Assembly: GCF_030252185.1 (NCBI RefSeq) | Contig: NZ_CP126970.1 | Coordinates: forward strand, 1,984,001 to 2,048,000 | Reading direction: 5' to 3' | Length of the DNA stretch: 64,000 nt | Origin: Corynebacterium suedekumii | Lineage (GTDB): Bacteria > Actinomycetota > Actinomycetes > Mycobacteriales > Mycobacteriaceae | Shown here: positions 10,351-15,864 of the stretch, in pieces | How the letters are laid out: every line of letters begins with the position of its first letter | Position numbering within the stretch: the stretch's first letter is position 1 | Translations under genes and position numbers: made by a program | The notes under the pieces: model-generated | What the model was told of the DNA's origin: nothing | What the model saw: only the letters and a program-made list of their open reading frames with translations | The model's database searches: none

Positions 10351-11395
10351 CCTCCTCGCCGGCCGGGACCGGGCCGGGCAGGGTGACGCCGTCGGCGAAG
10401 GGCTGACCGCCCAGTGCCTCGCGGCCGTGCGGGGTGGCCAGGCCGGACAGATCCGGGCCCTGGGGCACGATCTGGGTGGGGTTGACCTCCTTGTGCACGA
10501 TGAAATAATGCTGCTTGACCTCGGTGAAGTCGGTGGTGTCGCCGAAACCGGGCAGCTGGAACAGCTCGCGCAGGTAACCCCACAGGGCGGGCAGCTCGGA
10601 GATCTTGTTCCGGGAGGTCTTGAAGTGGGAGTAGTAGACGGCGTCGTGGCGGATGAGGGTGACGAACAGGAAGATGTCCGCGAAGGTGATGTGCTCGCCG
10701 ACCAGGTAACGGCGGGTGGTCAGGCGCTCCTCGAGCCAGTCCATGGTGGCCCAGAAGCGGTCGTAGGCGTCGTCGTAGGCGTCCTGTGAACCGGCGAAAC
10801 CGCAGCGGTAGACGCCGTTGTTGACCTCGGTGTAGACGCGCTTGGCGATCTCGTCGATCTCCGCCCGGTGCTCGACCGGGTAGAGGTCCGGGGCGCCCTC
10901 GCGGTGGAACTGCGTCCACTCGGTCTGGAAGTCGCGGACGATGGAGGGGTAGTCGTTGGTGACGACCTTCTTCGACGACACCTCGAGCAGTGCCGGGACG
11001 GTGATGCCGCGCGGGTAGTCGGGGAATCGGTTGAAGTAGCCCTCCTGCAGGCGGTGCAGGCCGGTGACCGGGTCGACACCGTCGGGGTCGAGGTCGAAGA
11101 CCCAGGAGCGGACGTCGTGGGTGGGGCCGGCCAGCCCGAGGGAGATGACGTCCTCGAGGCCGAGCAGGCGGCGGGTGATGATCGACCGGTGCGCCCACGG
11201 GCATGCCCGGGCGGCCATGAGCCGGTAACGGTCCGCCTCGACGGGCCAGTGGTAAGTGCCGTCGGCCTGCTCGGTCGGCGTGCCGGCGGGGGCGTCGGCG
11301 GTGATGCGGTCGTTGATGTAGTTGGTGTCGCGGACGAATTCGCCGTCTGTGGACGCGTTCTTCGCGTCGCCTGCCCAGTCGTTGTCTGTTGTCAT
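10295..11395 (-). CDS. Glutathionyl-hydroquinone-reductase-like GST family protein
   Basis: A 366-residue xi-class GST-like enzyme (YqjG/ECM4 family). The catalytic CPWA motif is present (RACPWAHR, Cys65), as are the C-terminal helical domain and the family-typical DDAYDRFWATMDWLEERL and RNKISELPALWGYLRELF regions. Relatives reduce glutathionyl-hydroquinones; actinobacteria use mycothiol instead of glutathione, so the thiol adduct is probably different. Start ATG 11395 is fixed by a strong promoter with correct leaderless spacing. Confidence 0.88.
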   Translation of the reverse strand: MTTDNDWAGDAKNASTDGEFVRDTNYINDRITADAPAGTPTEQADGTYHWPVEADRYRLMAARACPWAHRSIITRRLLGLEDVISLGLAGPTHDVRSWVFDLDPDGVDPVTGLHRLQEGYFNRFPDYPRGITVPALLEVSSKKVVTNDYPSIVRDFQTEWTQFHREGAPDLYPVEHRAEIDEIAKRVYTEVNNGVYRCGFAGSQDAYDDAYDRFWATMDWLEERLTTRRYLVGEHITFADIFLFVTLIRHDAVYYSHFKTSRNKISELPALWGYLRELFQLPGFGDTTDFTEVKQHYFIVHKEVNPTQIVPQGPDLSGLATPHGREALGGQPFADGVTLPGPVPAGEEVKNPEPFQQELFGIPAAR

Positions 11396-11402
11396 ATCAA
11401 CA

Positions 11403-11431
11403 ACTGTAGCGGTGTTCGAACGCCCGGTCAA
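11403..11431 (-). promoter_or_regulatory. Sigma-A-type promoter of the GST-like gene
   Basis: On the minus strand TTGACC (11431-11426) and TACAGT (11408-11403) are separated by 17 nt; the start codon follows 7 nt after the -10, so transcription should begin at the ATG. This is the best-formed -35/-10 pair I saw in the window. Confidence 0.7.
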
Positions 11432-11465
11432 CGTGTCCGCCCGCATTGCTACGGTGAGAGGCGAC

Positions 11466-12161
11466 ATGAAACGACTGGCCGCCGCCCTGGGCATCCTCCT
11501 GGCACTGCTGGTGATCGGCGCCGCCTCCCTGCGTGTCGACGCCCCACTCACCGCCGTCCTCCCCGCCGCACCCTCCGCCCCGGTCACCACCGCACCACCG
11601 GCCACGACCCCGCCCGTCCTCTCCGCCCTCGCGATCAAGGGCCGCGCCCCCATGACCGGCTACGCCCGAGAGAACTTCGGCCAGGCCTGGAGTGACGACG
11701 TCCGGGTCGACGGGGGACGCAACGGCTGCGACACCCGCAACGACATCCTCCGCCGCGACCTCATCGACCCGGTCATCCGCCCCGGAACCCACGGCTGCCT
11801 CGTCGAATCCGGCCTGCTGCCGGACCCGTACTCCGGCGAGAGGATCGAGTTCGTCCGCGGCAACGACCGGGTCCACATCGACCACGTTGTCCCGCTGGCC
11901 GACGCCTGGGCCAAAGGCGCCCAGGCCTGGGACGACGAGACGCGCCGCGACTTCGCCAACGACCCCCGCAACCTCCAGGCCACCGCTGCCGACCTCAACC
12001 GGCAGAAGGGGGCCGGCGACGCCGCCACCTGGCAACCACCCAACAAGGACCACCGCTGCGCCTACGCCCGGCAGCAGATCGAGGTCAAGGCCGCCTACGG
12101 CCTGTGGATCACCCGCGCCGAACACACCGCCCTGGCCCGCGAGCTCAGCCGCTGCCGCTGA
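11466..12161 (+). CDS. Exported HNH endonuclease-family protein (DUF1524-type)
   Basis: A 231-residue protein with an N-terminal signal peptide or anchor (residues 4-22) and a Pro/Ala/Thr-rich linker (31-52). The C-terminal half has the GmrSD/DUF1524-type HNH fold: VHIDHVVPLADAW (DH at 139-140), then DPRNLQATAADLNRQKGAGD with the Asn positions, and a final CAYARQQIEVK. Such secreted actinobacterial HNH proteins are thought to be extracellular or surface nucleases. Cysteines at 88, 111, 198 and 230 could form disulfides. It diverges from the GST-like gene; a TACGGT hexamer sits 10 nt before the ATG. Confidence 0.85.
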   Translation: MKRLAAALGILLALLVIGAASLRVDAPLTAVLPAAPSAPVTTAPPATTPPVLSALAIKGRAPMTGYARENFGQAWSDDVRVDGGRNGCDTRNDILRRDLIDPVIRPGTHGCLVESGLLPDPYSGERIEFVRGNDRVHIDHVVPLADAWAKGAQAWDDETRRDFANDPRNLQATAADLNRQKGAGDAATWQPPNKDHRCAYARQQIEVKAAYGLWITRAEHTALARELSRCR

Positions 12162-12249: not shown

Positions 12250-13332
12250 ATGAGCGACCGAAACCAGAATCCGGACCGGGCCAACACCCCGGACAACGAC
12301 GGCATCGACGTACCCACCTACCGCAACGACCAGACCACCCCCACCGGTGGATCCACCCCCACCGGGTCGTCCCCGGCGTCACCGGCACGGAACGCCCAGC
12401 AGGACCCCACCCCGACCGCTGGACGGGACGACGCCACCACCCAGTTCCCCCGCGGCACCGCTGGTTCTGCTGGCACCACGGGTGCCGCCGGTGCCACGGG
12501 TGCCGCCGGAGCCGGCGGGGACGTCTACAACCGCGCCGGTCGCGCCGCCCCGCAGGAGATCCCGGCAGAACCCCGCCAGGCCCGGCCCGAGCCGCGCACT
12601 GATGCCCGCACCGAGTACCTGCAGGACAGCCCCCGCGACAACTACCAGGACCAGGATTTCGCTCCCACCGGTAGCCGGGAGACCGTCTCCTTCGACCGCA
12701 ACGCCAACTACAGCGAGCCGGCTTACCAGGACACCACCTACGCCGAGCCCGCCCCGGTCGCGGCCCCGGTGGTCGAGGAGGAGCACGTGGTCACCGAGAC
12801 CACCGTGCCCGACCACCGCCGCGGCACCATCGACTTCGGCCTGCTGATCATCCGACTGCTCCTGGGCATCTGGCTCATCCTCGAGGCCGTGGGCACCTTC
12901 TTCCGCCTCGGCGGGAACGAGGGCATCTCCGGACTGGAGTCCGAGTACGCCAACTACCTGGCACCGGGCGGCCTGGCCATCATCGTGCCGTCGCTGCAGC
13001 TGGCGGCCGGTGTGTTCCTCGTCCTCGGCCTGATCACGCCGCTGTTTGCGATGGTGGCGACCATCGTCACCGCCTTCACCGCGCTGCACGCCCTCACCGG
13101 CAGTGGCGCCGGCCTCAACGTCTTCGCCTGGTCCGAGGGGGTGTGGCTCTCGGTCATCCTGTTCGGCATCTCCCTGGCGCTGCAGTTCACCGGCCCGGGC
13201 CTGTACTCCTTCGACTACGGCCGCAGCTGGGCCCGTCGCCCGCTGGTCAGCTCCTGGATCTTCATCCTCCTGGCCATCGCCGGCGCCGTCGCCCTGTGGT
13301 GGTTCGGCGCAGGCGTCAACCCCCTGAGCTAG
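12250..13332 (+). CDS. DoxX-family membrane protein with long disordered N-terminus
   Basis: A 360-residue protein. Residues 1-190 are low-complexity and hydrophilic (Pro, Thr, Asn, Gly, with GAAGATGAAGAGG-like repeats), presumably cytoplasmic and disordered. Residues 195-355 hold about four to five membrane helices of the DoxX type, including DFGLLIIRLLLGIWLILEAV and LQLAAGVFLVLGLITPLFAM. DoxX proteins are linked to redox and membrane stress functions, without a settled activity. A perfect hairpin follows the stop. Confidence 0.85.
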   Translation: MSDRNQNPDRANTPDNDGIDVPTYRNDQTTPTGGSTPTGSSPASPARNAQQDPTPTAGRDDATTQFPRGTAGSAGTTGAAGATGAAGAGGDVYNRAGRAAPQEIPAEPRQARPEPRTDARTEYLQDSPRDNYQDQDFAPTGSRETVSFDRNANYSEPAYQDTTYAEPAPVAAPVVEEEHVVTETTVPDHRRGTIDFGLLIIRLLLGIWLILEAVGTFFRLGGNEGISGLESEYANYLAPGGLAIIVPSLQLAAGVFLVLGLITPLFAMVATIVTAFTALHALTGSGAGLNVFAWSEGVWLSVILFGISLALQFTGPGLYSFDYGRSWARRPLVSSWIFILLAIAGAVALWWFGAGVNPLS

Positions 13333-13349: not shown

Positions 13350-13392
13350 ACAACGGCCCGGCTCCGCGCTGCTGCGGGAGCCGGGCCGTTGT
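13350..13392 (+). terminator. Hairpin terminator after the DoxX gene
   Basis: A 16-bp perfect stem (13350-13365 with 13377-13392) with an 11-nt loop starts 17 nt after the stop codon. No T-tract follows, so its efficiency as an intrinsic terminator is uncertain. Confidence 0.6.
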
Positions 13393-13404
13393 CGATCCGG
13401 AGTG

Positions 13405-13464
13405 CCCCTTCATTCGGGGACATCGGCTGCACTGCAGCGCAGGGAAGCTCCCCGAATGCAGGGG
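13405..13464 (-). repeat. 60-bp palindromic repeat, copy 1
   Basis: Read on the minus strand this 60-mer matches 54 of 60 bases of the copy at 14500-14559. It contains long complementary arms (CATTCGGGGA and TCCCCGAATG) around an inner CTGCACTGCAG core, so it can fold as a nested hairpin. It ends 3 nt from the stop codon of the DUF559-type gene. Confidence 0.9.
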
Positions 13465-13467
13465 TAC

Positions 13468-14421
13468 TCAGTCGATGTGGATCCGCGGGAAGTCCGTGCG
13501 GTCCGGCAACCCAAGCCGAGCCAGGGTCGCACGGTAGGTGTGCAGTTTCTCCACCTGGTGGTAGCTGTAGTGCGCGGTGGTCACACCCGCTCGTCGGATG
13601 GCGTCCGCCCGCCGTTTCTCCCGCTCCAACGAGAAATGCTGTTCCCCGTCAGTTGACCCGTACTTACCCCGTCCGTCCAGCTCAATTCCCTCAATCGTTC
13701 CTTCGACGACGAAGTCAACGCGGTAGACGGTCCCGTCTTCGACGGTCACCGCATACTGAGGGATCAGGTCGAAATCGCCGTAGAACACCGACTGCGCCAG
13801 GAACTGGGCTTCCATCGCCGACTCGACTGCCGGGGTGGCGCGGTTGACCAGTGTGCGAAGATCGCCGGAACTTTCCTCGCCTCCCAAAAATCGACCGAAG
13901 TTCTCCCGGGAGGTCAGTCCGAGGCGAAGCGCGTGACACAGGGCCACGAAACCGGCGCCAAATCCGTGGACCCGGACAAGGTCGGCGATGGTGCGATCCA
14001 CACTGGTACACCACAGACCGTCCACCATGACCGTGTCCTCCGGAAGCAGCCGACTGTGCAGCTCCGTCAGGCGAGGACCCGTGGTCAGCCTTCTTCCCTG
14101 GGATCGCCGGTAGATGTGGTGCCGGCCCGGAACCGACTGATACCGCCACAATCCGTGCACGGCAGCCGCGGAGTATCCGGCGAGTATCCGGCCCCGCGTG
14201 GAGCCCACGGACCGGGCGTCCAGGTCGAATCGGCCCCACGGTGGAAGCTCGTCAATGGTCGAGCACCTGGCATACGCGCCCCGGCTGAGCATGCGGATCT
14301 CCCGGTGCTTCACCAGCATTCTGAGAACGTGATTGCAGTCCGGAAGATGGGTCTGGTCACTCCGCAGAATGAGACCGTCCGGTCGTTCGATGATCTTCGC
14401 GGACCAGGTGGCGACGTTCAT
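13468..14421 (-). CDS. AbiEi-like/DUF559 (Vsr-fold) nuclease-domain protein
   Basis: A 317-residue protein. The N-terminal part (residues about 1-150) resembles the winged-helix AbiEi antitoxin domain seen in many actinobacterial proteins (LVKHREIRMLSRGAYAR). The C-terminal part has a DUF559/very-short-patch-repair fold with PD-(D/E)XK-like residues: VYRVDFVVEG, then GIELDGRGKY, then EREKRRADAIRRAG. No AbiEii toxin gene is adjacent, so it is not an obvious toxin-antitoxin pair. The start codon ATG 14421 is preceded by GAGGGGAG. The gene is enclosed by two inverted copies of a 60-bp palindromic repeat, which suggests a mobile or self-regulated cassette. Activity is inferred from fold only. Confidence 0.75.
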   Translation of the reverse strand: MNVATWSAKIIERPDGLILRSDQTHLPDCNHVLRMLVKHREIRMLSRGAYARCSTIDELPPWGRFDLDARSVGSTRGRILAGYSAAAVHGLWRYQSVPGRHHIYRRSQGRRLTTGPRLTELHSRLLPEDTVMVDGLWCTSVDRTIADLVRVHGFGAGFVALCHALRLGLTSRENFGRFLGGEESSGDLRTLVNRATPAVESAMEAQFLAQSVFYGDFDLIPQYAVTVEDGTVYRVDFVVEGTIEGIELDGRGKYGSTDGEQHFSLEREKRRADAIRRAGVTTAHYSYHQVEKLHTYRATLARLGLPDRTDFPRIHID

Positions 14422-14499
14422 GGGCTCCCCTCGAGTCAGTGTGCAGTCACCACTCTTGGACTGTCGCTCGTCCCTGTCGGTTCCCTGATTTCCGGATCA

Positions 14500-14559
14500 C
14501 CCCTGCATTCGGGGAGATTCACTGCGCTGCAGTGCAGGGGATGTCCCCGAATGCAGGGT
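14500..14559 (+). repeat. 60-bp palindromic repeat, copy 2
   Basis: Inverted partner of the copy at 13405-13464. It has perfect 15-nt arms (14501-14515 and 14544-14558) and an inner hairpin CACTGC-GCT-GCAGTG (14520-14534). It lies upstream of the DUF559-type gene and 14 nt from the stop codon of the glycosyltransferase gene. Confidence 0.9.
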
Positions 14560-14576
14560 CAGGCAATGCAGGGTCA
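14550..14576 (+). repeat. 12-bp direct repeat at the edge of palindrome copy 2
   Basis: AATGCAGGGTCA occurs at 14550-14561 and again at 14565-14576, 3 nt apart. The second copy contains the stop codon (TCA on this strand) of the convergent-side glycosyltransferase gene. It may be an insertion scar or slippage product. Confidence 0.75.
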
Positions 14577-15854
14577 CGCCGCGATCGCCGCAGGCGTCGC
14601 CCGAGGGACCCCGCGCAGCGCCACAGCCCAGGCGATGAGCAGCACGATGGCAAGCCACACGAAGTCAGAGACCAGCAGCTTCTCGGTGAAGGTGAGGGCG
14701 TGGACCTCGATGCTGTCGCCGTACCACCACTTCGGGGGCTCGTGGAGGACCAGGGCGGTCCAGAGGATGACCCAGGCGCTGAGGAACACCGGGGCCCCGA
14801 GGGTGGTGGCGCAGCGCCAGGCGACGACCGGCAGCAGGAGGGTGAGCCACACCCAGTGATGGGACCAGGAGACGGGGGAGATCAGGAGCATGATGACGGC
14901 GTTGACCAGGGCGGCGTCGACAAGCATGTCGCGGCGCATGAGCGCGATCATGAACCAGCCGCCGAGGATGATGGTGGCCAGGGACAGGACGAGCCAGATG
15001 ACGTTGGCCTGGGTGCTGTGTGCGTCGAGGGATTCGGGGGTGAGGTACCAGCGCATGATCATGCCCTTGAGGGAGCTGTTGGACTGGTAGGCGCTGTCGA
15101 CGCCGAACTCGGATTCGGTGCCCATGCCGAGCAGGACCGAACTGAAGAACTCGACGGTGGCGTCCCAGCGGATCAGGGCGGCGATGCCGGTGGCCGCGAG
15201 GGCGGACACGACGGCGGTGAGGATCGCCTTGAGGTCCCTGCGCAGCAGGAAGAACAGCAGCATGGCCAGCGGGGAGATCTTGATGGCGGCGGCGATTCCG
15301 ATGAGGGTGCCCTGCGGGAGGAAGCGTTTCCGGGGGACGAGGTCGAGGATGACCAGCCCCATGATGACGATGTTGACCTGCGCGAAACCGGCGTTGAGCC
15401 ACACCGGCTCGATGAGCATCATGCCGGCCCAGGTGACAGTCGTCAGGGCCAGCAGGGAGTCCCGGTCGACGCGGGCGCCCGTCGCGGCCCGGAGGACGAA
15501 CCACAGGCAGGCGAGCACGAGGGCGGAGGACAGCATGATCATGAGGTCGCCGGCCAGGTCGTGGGTGAGCCACTCACCGACCGAGAGCGGCACGAGGGCC
15601 AGGGCCCCGAAGGGTGGGTAGATGAACGGCAGAGCGAGGTCGCCGGCGTACATGGGCACGGCGTACATCTCGCGGCCCTCGAGGAAAGCCAGGACGCCTT
15701 CGCGGTAGATGATCATGTCGACGGGGAAGTCGGTGATGAGCATCTGGCGGCCGGTGACGCCGACGCCCGCGACACATCCCAGCACAGCCACCATCCGGAG
15801 GATGACGGCGTGGGAGAGTGTCGCGGGCGGTTGACGGAGATCCGGGGAATTCAC
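14574..15854 (-). CDS. GT87-type polyprenyl-phosphate-dependent glycosyltransferase
   Basis: A membrane protein of 426 residues with about ten hydrophobic helices and the DUF2029/GT87 pattern: an Asp in the first extracytoplasmic loop (DFPVDMIIYREG), FIYPPFGALALVPL, and SPVSWSHHWVWLTLLLPV near the C-terminus. Corynebacterial GT87 enzymes (MptC, PimE, AftC types) add mannose or arabinose from polyprenyl-phosphate sugars to lipoglycans or arabinogalactan. Which one this is cannot be decided here. GTG 15854 was chosen because AAGGTG stands 6 nt upstream, inside the end of ilvD; GTG 15863 is an alternative. It is probably cotranscribed with ilvD. Confidence 0.85.
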   Translation of the reverse strand: MNSPDLRQPPATLSHAVILRMVAVLGCVAGVGVTGRQMLITDFPVDMIIYREGVLAFLEGREMYAVPMYAGDLALPFIYPPFGALALVPLSVGEWLTHDLAGDLMIMLSSALVLACLWFVLRAATGARVDRDSLLALTTVTWAGMMLIEPVWLNAGFAQVNIVIMGLVILDLVPRKRFLPQGTLIGIAAAIKISPLAMLLFFLLRRDLKAILTAVVSALAATGIAALIRWDATVEFFSSVLLGMGTESEFGVDSAYQSNSSLKGMIMRWYLTPESLDAHSTQANVIWLVLSLATIILGGWFMIALMRRDMLVDAALVNAVIMLLISPVSWSHHWVWLTLLLPVVAWRCATTLGAPVFLSAWVILWTALVLHEPPKWWYGDSIEVHALTFTEKLLVSDFVWLAIVLLIAWAVALRGVPRATPAAIAA

Positions 15855-15864
15855 CCCGATCACC

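Follow-up and report, generated by a model that had tools for sequence, protein, structure and literature searches.

What is a nuclease-like gene doing between two copies of one palindrome? The question is raised by a locus in the window analysed here, a stretch of 64,000 nucleotides of the Corynebacterium suedekumii genome (a single contig of 2.86 Mb). REP-like palindromes are common in bacteria, and to our knowledge the RAYT transposase is the enzyme with which they have been linked to date. The gene in question (13468-14421, minus strand) encodes a protein of 317 aa and is flanked by a downstream palindrome at 13403-13465 and an upstream palindrome at 14499-14561. A sequence-only reading had described inverted palindromic repeats of 60 bp around the gene, one of them close to its stop codon, and this description is borne out: the two elements are inverted relative to each other, 63 nt long, 90% complementary and separated by 1033 nt, and each is also palindromic in itself. 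In the upstream copy the arms are 29 nt long and 86% paired, with exact pairing of the outer 15 nt (CCCTGCATTCGGGGA / TCCCCGAATGCAGGG); in the downstream copy they are 35 nt long and 77% paired. Only two bases lie between the stop codon and the downstream palindrome, and 77 nt between the start codon and the upstream one. Since the two flanks match each other at 87.8 bits (E 9e-22) and four more copies occur in the genome, the pair is not a product of chance; palindrome, gene and palindrome most likely form a single cassette, of ~1.16 kb in the window. This cassette occupies the gap between two converging genes that lie outside it, a DoxX gene directed towards it (12250-13332, plus strand; Pfam DoxX, E 1e-7) and a GT87 glycosyltransferase gene (14574-15863, minus strand; Pfam GT87, E 1e-44), whose stop codon is 12 nt from the upstream palindrome. 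The DoxX gene is followed by a separate hairpin outside the cassette (13350-13392; perfect 16-nt arms, 11-nt loop), probably its terminator, and the palindrome beside it is therefore an additional element. Slightly upstream of the DoxX gene, at 11322-12158, lies a gene with a GmrSD_C (HNH-type) domain.

The window protein has no Pfam match, and no transposase match in Pfam or NCBIfam. The AbiEi models of PADLOC match it mainly over residues 77-177 (best E 2.7e-8), and the commonest of them matches 17 of 22 homologs, among which the Pfam matches are weak (MTES_1575 in three, AbiEi_4 in three, DUF559 in two, AbiEi_1 in one). Residues A85, A86, E204, D236, E247, G250, K253, Y254 and R271 are invariant in the 22 homologs, and Q222 nearly so; in a set of 55, D236 is found in all and E247 and K253 in 54. 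E204, D236, E247 and K253 are, judging by this conservation, the probable active-site residues. The AlphaFold2 model (pLDDT 91.6, pTM 0.89) has, from residue 202 onwards, a helix, three strands, a helix and a strand, which is the order of the PD-(D/E)XK core. A sequence search against solved structures gave nothing significant, and the named relatives of the protein are from Corynebacterium (C. pollutisoli, MAGs and C. nasicanis). Taken together, the alignments and the predicted fold suggest that the protein is probably an AbiEi-like DNA-binding part joined to a PD-(D/E)XK nuclease.

We propose, with modest confidence, that the locus belongs to a class of ~1.2-kb cassettes found across Actinomycetota, in which an AbiEi-like PD-(D/E)XK nuclease acts on the palindrome that flanks its gene and causes it to spread. 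Each nuclease would have its own palindrome family, two copies of which bracket the gene while others are scattered, in a lineage-specific manner, in many genomes. By analogy with AbiEi (the part of PMC7319586 considered here), the AbiEi-like part may recognise the palindrome, possibly in the form of an extruded cruciform or hairpin; nicking or cutting it would fall to the nuclease part. Repair from another copy could then seed, convert and homogenise palindromes, and now and then such copying might carry the whole cassette, gene included.

The likeness to known proteins also suggests other roles. Vsr-like nucleases, among which homing endonucleases exist, and the DUF559/MTES_1575 nucleases share the order of core strands and helices predicted by the model, and their Pfam families are hit by a few of the homologs; the window protein differs in its fused AbiEi-like part, its flanking palindromes and its own lack of a Pfam match. 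The AbiEi antitoxins of type IV AbiE systems (Rv2827c of M. tuberculosis, AbiEi of S. agalactiae) are linked to it by the AbiEi models, and both bind inverted repeats in their own promoters, as described in that same part of PMC7319586. The palindromes could accordingly be operators, by which the AbiEi-type protein regulates itself and, via the solo copies, other genes, a role that the upstream palindrome would suit by its distance from the start codon. Yet the second copy stands at the stop codon, the four solo copies of the genome lie at gene 3' ends rather than before promoters, and a probable nuclease active site has been kept, judging by the alignment, so that we regard this explanation as improbable. 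Compared with AbiEi, the protein has an extra nuclease part, it has repeat copies beside the stop codon and at other places in the genome as well, and no AbiEii partner was found among the four neighbouring proteins scanned (DoxX, GT87, ILVD_EDD and GmrSD_C).

The solo copies of the window palindrome are at 1006031-1006095, 1293169-1293230, 1398078-1398121 and 2489655-2489714 of the genome, the third with one arm decayed; the count leaves out two weaker matches, with E values of 0.05 and 0.34. In the copy at 2489655 the arm reads CAAACGGGGA where the window copies have CATTCGGGGA, and the opposite arm is altered to match. All four lie in gaps between frames taken as genes, at gene 3' ends, and the copies in this genome lie between converging genes or after genes. 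It could be hypothesised from these positions that the palindromes are bidirectional terminators or RNA stability hairpins, functionally unrelated to the nuclease; they do fold into stable hairpins, and T-free terminators are known in GC-rich bacteria. This is nevertheless quite improbable in our judgement: the DoxX gene probably already has a terminator hairpin of its own, a pattern scan (loops of 3-8 only) found no T-tailed terminator at either palindrome, and sequence families tied to one gene family would not be expected of terminators. A known RNA family was also considered and rejected, the three matches all being far below the gathering score.

The palindrome is specific to its lineage. 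No match at E 1e-3 was found when 200 further Corynebacterium genomes, sampled from a larger group, were searched, and the DoxX/GT87 locus gave no nuclease match in any of the 13 relatives taken in from 19 retrieved. In seven of these the DoxX and GT87 genes are at most about 55 nt apart, and in two the DoxX gene was not found at the locus. The remaining four (L125, L126, L128 and L129; L and G numbers are our labels for loci and genomes) have other sequence of about 270 to 1000 nt between the two genes, with no nuclease match, from which it follows that the gap may take in different insertions. One solo site adjoins what we take to be the map gene, the names of the genes beside the solo copies all being our own assumption; the palindrome is present in none of the ten relatives inspected there (29 retrieved), and four of them have another hairpin (34-53 bits), some resembling ordinary terminators. 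The sequence-only reading had looked for further copies in the genome and for relatives with the neighbouring genes but without the gene and its palindromes, and both are found; neither outcome that it named as a refutation occurred, as the 60-mer recurs beyond this locus and relatives do not conserve it. Neither a target-site duplication nor a strain-level insertion was seen, which counts against the model; identity to the relatives reaches no more than 78% for the window site and lies at 81-93% for the map site, a divergence at which duplications are unreadable.

Bracketing by palindromes is a recurrent feature of the gene family. A homolog is present in 127 of 201 genomes of the genus, in 122 of 150 sampled genomes of the order and in 55 of 198 genomes of a phylum sample, the C. 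suedekumii genome being included each time. For the genus, the best 60 homolog loci were retrieved, two of them from the C. suedekumii genome; one lacked a usable frame and the window was added, giving 60 scored genes. Matching repeats of at least 40 bits within 500 nt on both sides were found for 14 of the 60 (window included) against one of 330 control genes, the controls being other frames of at least 450 nt in the same stretches. Self-palindromes on both sides (34 bits) gave a similar picture (8/60 against 1/220). The locus L058 also has a palindrome pair, which the count of 14 missed because its start was over-extended. The single positive control (L110:1118-2567, genome G177) is a 78-nt direct repeat, 98.7% identical, round a frame with an end like that of a TetR-type regulator. 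In the wider samples a pair was found at 20 of 26 order loci (threshold 38 bits; 29 less three too short) and 18 of 27 phylum loci (29 less two too short), against 0/26 and 0/27 for the outer flanks of the same loci; since outer flanks are richer in coding sequence, the one in 330 of the genus is the fairer control. The 46 genus homologs, six order loci and nine phylum loci below threshold count against the model. Across the 38 positive loci outside the genus set, the unit has a length of 980-1547 nt, with a median of 1208, the matched palindrome segments are 45-149 nt long and 70-100% alike, in direct orientation at 23 loci and inverted at 15, and the point at which the downstream segment begins ranges from 116 nt ahead of the stop codon to 76 nt past it, with a median of 3.5 nt past it. 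The earlier expectation of palindromes beside other such genes was thus right as to the pairs, but the palindromes of other homologs differ from this 60-mer.

This diversity is already visible within one genome. Three homologs of C. suedekumii have three different palindrome pairs: that of the window, that of a homolog at 499860-500660 (L117), and a pair of about 83 nt, 86% alike, around the frame-broken homolog at 141395-142205 (L383, 139500-144500). At a further homolog (L116), flanking-repeat and self-palindrome scoring detected no pair. The L117 family is represented in the genome by its flanking copies only, which counts against a spreading model.

Other families are widely dispersed. When twelve genus palindromes were joined as one query against 13 genomes and each place was counted once, about 24 places were found in G050, 18 in G183, 15 in G056, 10 in G190, seven in G098, six in G141, three each in G184, G187 and G168, and one in G121, and G061 had the flanking pair only, the last two genomes counting against spread. 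Each palindrome matched its own genome, with two exceptions: G130, a sister species of G190, has the G190 family, and G184 has G061-like copies. The latter are two in number (L174 and L175), and no close G061-type nuclease was found among the G184 proteins scored; the second homolog of G184 itself is not close to the G061 nuclease, which counts against the model. In other genera, where eleven palindromes were compared with 12 genomes, G239 has at least 49 distinct places (at least 100 matches over both strands), G218 at least 40 matches, G203 at least 41 (with the G218 palindrome), and the remaining genomes from at least 3 to at least 28; family specificity holds here among the matches listed. 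In G239, twenty copies share a clearly bounded 70-nt unit of the type GTTCCC...GGGAAC; their flanks are unrelated, and the copies themselves, where aligned, have at least 92.9% identity with the query. At one solo site of G239 the palindrome is present in none of nine congeners inspected, relatives too distant for insertion edges to be visible. The genes around solo copies are convergent, tandem and divergent in 3, 10 and 7 cases in G239, and in 14, 14 and 7 cases at 35 loci of G050, G056, G098 and G141, numbers from which no conclusion is drawn because taking the longest frame as the gene is a crude rule in GC-rich DNA.

Such copy numbers bear on a possible role in defence, in which a restriction-like nuclease would have palindromes that mark its own genome or tune its activity. 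It is in line with the AbiEi-type models in PADLOC and with the occurrence of Vsr-like REase domains in conflict proteins, the part of PMC3710099 considered here also placing an MTES_1575 Vsr-like REase in another protein. A self-mark would hardly consist of flanking copies only in some genomes and of dozens in others, however; it does not by itself explain the bracketing or the lineage-specific presence, and the neighbours scanned at the window locus include no AbiEii partner. We consider it very improbable.

A more serious alternative is that other hairpin-directed machinery, belonging to replication, to repair or to some unrecognised mobile element, copies or moves the cassette and the solo palindromes, with the nuclease as cargo or control factor. 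Transposition by the nuclease itself is a hypothesis, and G184 has similar palindromes without a close nuclease. In G190, moreover, the palindromes of one family lie inside a longer repeated stretch that occurs several times in that genome and also in G130 (L182, L183 and L184). At one G190 site the palindrome of G012 can be aligned in its outer arms and differs in its core; at a second site G012 lacks about 330 nt, palindrome included, which is an indel rather than a clean palindrome insertion and counts against our model. G012 seemingly has a dispersed family of its own, of the GGTTTGTTTG... type (G012:C2:395697, 636826 and 2011894), and copies of it lie near two G190 sites (L228 and L231). 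A nuclease that is merely carried along would, on the other hand, leave unexplained why this one gene family is so often bracketed and why palindrome similarity is highest among the closest nucleases, and Y1 transposases, the only transposase class searched for genome-wide, are absent from 12 of 13 genomes. On these grounds we find it unlikely.

The similarity among close nucleases was measured over 35 loci with pairs. For the ten closest nuclease pairs, mean palindrome similarity exceeds that of all 20,000 label shuffles, and of the four nuclease pairs closest to each other, three also have the palindromes that rank first to third in similarity. The rank correlation across every pair of loci is weak (0.07, p 0.08), which counts against the model; in these alignments the co-divergence signal is carried by the closest pairs. 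Two loci from different genera (L254 and L264) share a nuclease at 72% DNA identity and a palindrome stretch at 80%, with nothing else in common within 1.5 kb. At another pair of loci, from two species (L243 and L245), a neighbouring stretch is 91% identical and the nuclease between the palindromes 65% in DNA. In G184 and G187 the cassette is at the same place, with flanks 0.84 and 0.86 alike and proteins 75% identical, and its palindromes are 0.82 and 0.91 alike within each genome as against 0.51 and 0.58 between orthologous places; the two flanking copies have altered in step, an indication of copying from one to the other. G218 and G203 show the effect only slightly (0.80 and 0.76 within, 0.72 and 0.70 between), and it is missing in G190 and G130 (0.78 and 0.74 within, 0.76 and 0.73 between; flanks 84-88%). 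Concerted change is thus clear in only one of three species pairs, and the arms of the twenty G239 copies do not covary beyond shuffles (p 0.36); both results count against the model.

The nearest parallel to the proposed nuclease-driven cassette is the REP/RAYT system, to which the sequence-only reading had compared the locus. Both are compact and chromosomal, with a gene between two palindromes and a dispersed, mostly intergenic family specific to a genome or lineage. The enzymes differ, a RAYT being a Y1 HUH transposase and the present protein an AbiEi-like part with a PD-(D/E)XK nuclease, as do the palindromes, of 45-149 nt at the 38 loci against 20-40 bp for REPs in the part of PMC3733652 considered here, which deals with REPs and RAYTs and in which Corynebacterium does not appear. 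By eye, no GTAG tag is seen at the edges of the window copies or of the twenty G239 copies. Y1_Tnp (PF01797) was found in one of 13 genomes, not that of C. suedekumii, and spread by a RAYT is rejected for this genome, as the domain is absent there and from 12 of the 13. The comparison is therefore apt as an analogy, with the RAYT excluded as the driver in this genome: the system works like REP/RAYT without being REP/RAYT. Insertion sequences and MITEs resemble it in having a unit of ~1.2 kb with matching ends and short copies without the gene; they differ in that each end is here a complete palindrome, direct at 23 and inverted at 15 of the 38 loci, that the window protein matches no known transposase, and that no target-site duplication was seen, among relatives too divergent to read one. 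An origin from a plasmid or phage was rejected, as there was no match for the window protein, for one homolog from another genus or for the palindrome; a scan of viral contigs with two peptide patterns found no relative either.

The proposed sequence of recognition, cutting and repair fits the genome specificity of the palindromes, their joint change, their co-divergence with the nuclease and the bracketed gene, and we infer from it that the nuclease may bind, cut and mobilise its palindromes and so drive their spread. No description of a palindrome-nuclease pairing was found among the open-access papers listed; PMC2267715 treats stem-loop families and has C. diphtheriae in one of its tables, and a nuclease does not appear in the part considered here. 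Within this limited, open-access search no known palindrome system uses the enzyme class, and we rate the pairing as new for that reason. More tentatively, and as a possibility rather than an expectation, these cassettes may be repeat systems, selfish or domesticated, that occur throughout the phylum: a PD-(D/E)XK nuclease in place of a transposase would recognise the palindrome belonging to it and spread it within the genome through cutting and copying by repair, with nuclease specificity and palindrome diverging together and the copies changing in concert. If this is true, a second, unrelated class of enzyme would be associated with such palindromes across Actinomycetota, and such repeat systems would have arisen more than once. 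It would also suggest a function, open to experimental test, for the unnamed genes of AbiEi/DUF559 type, a large family present in those 122 of the 150 genomes of the order, and would provide many natural pairs of nuclease and site in which the evolution of DNA recognition could be studied.
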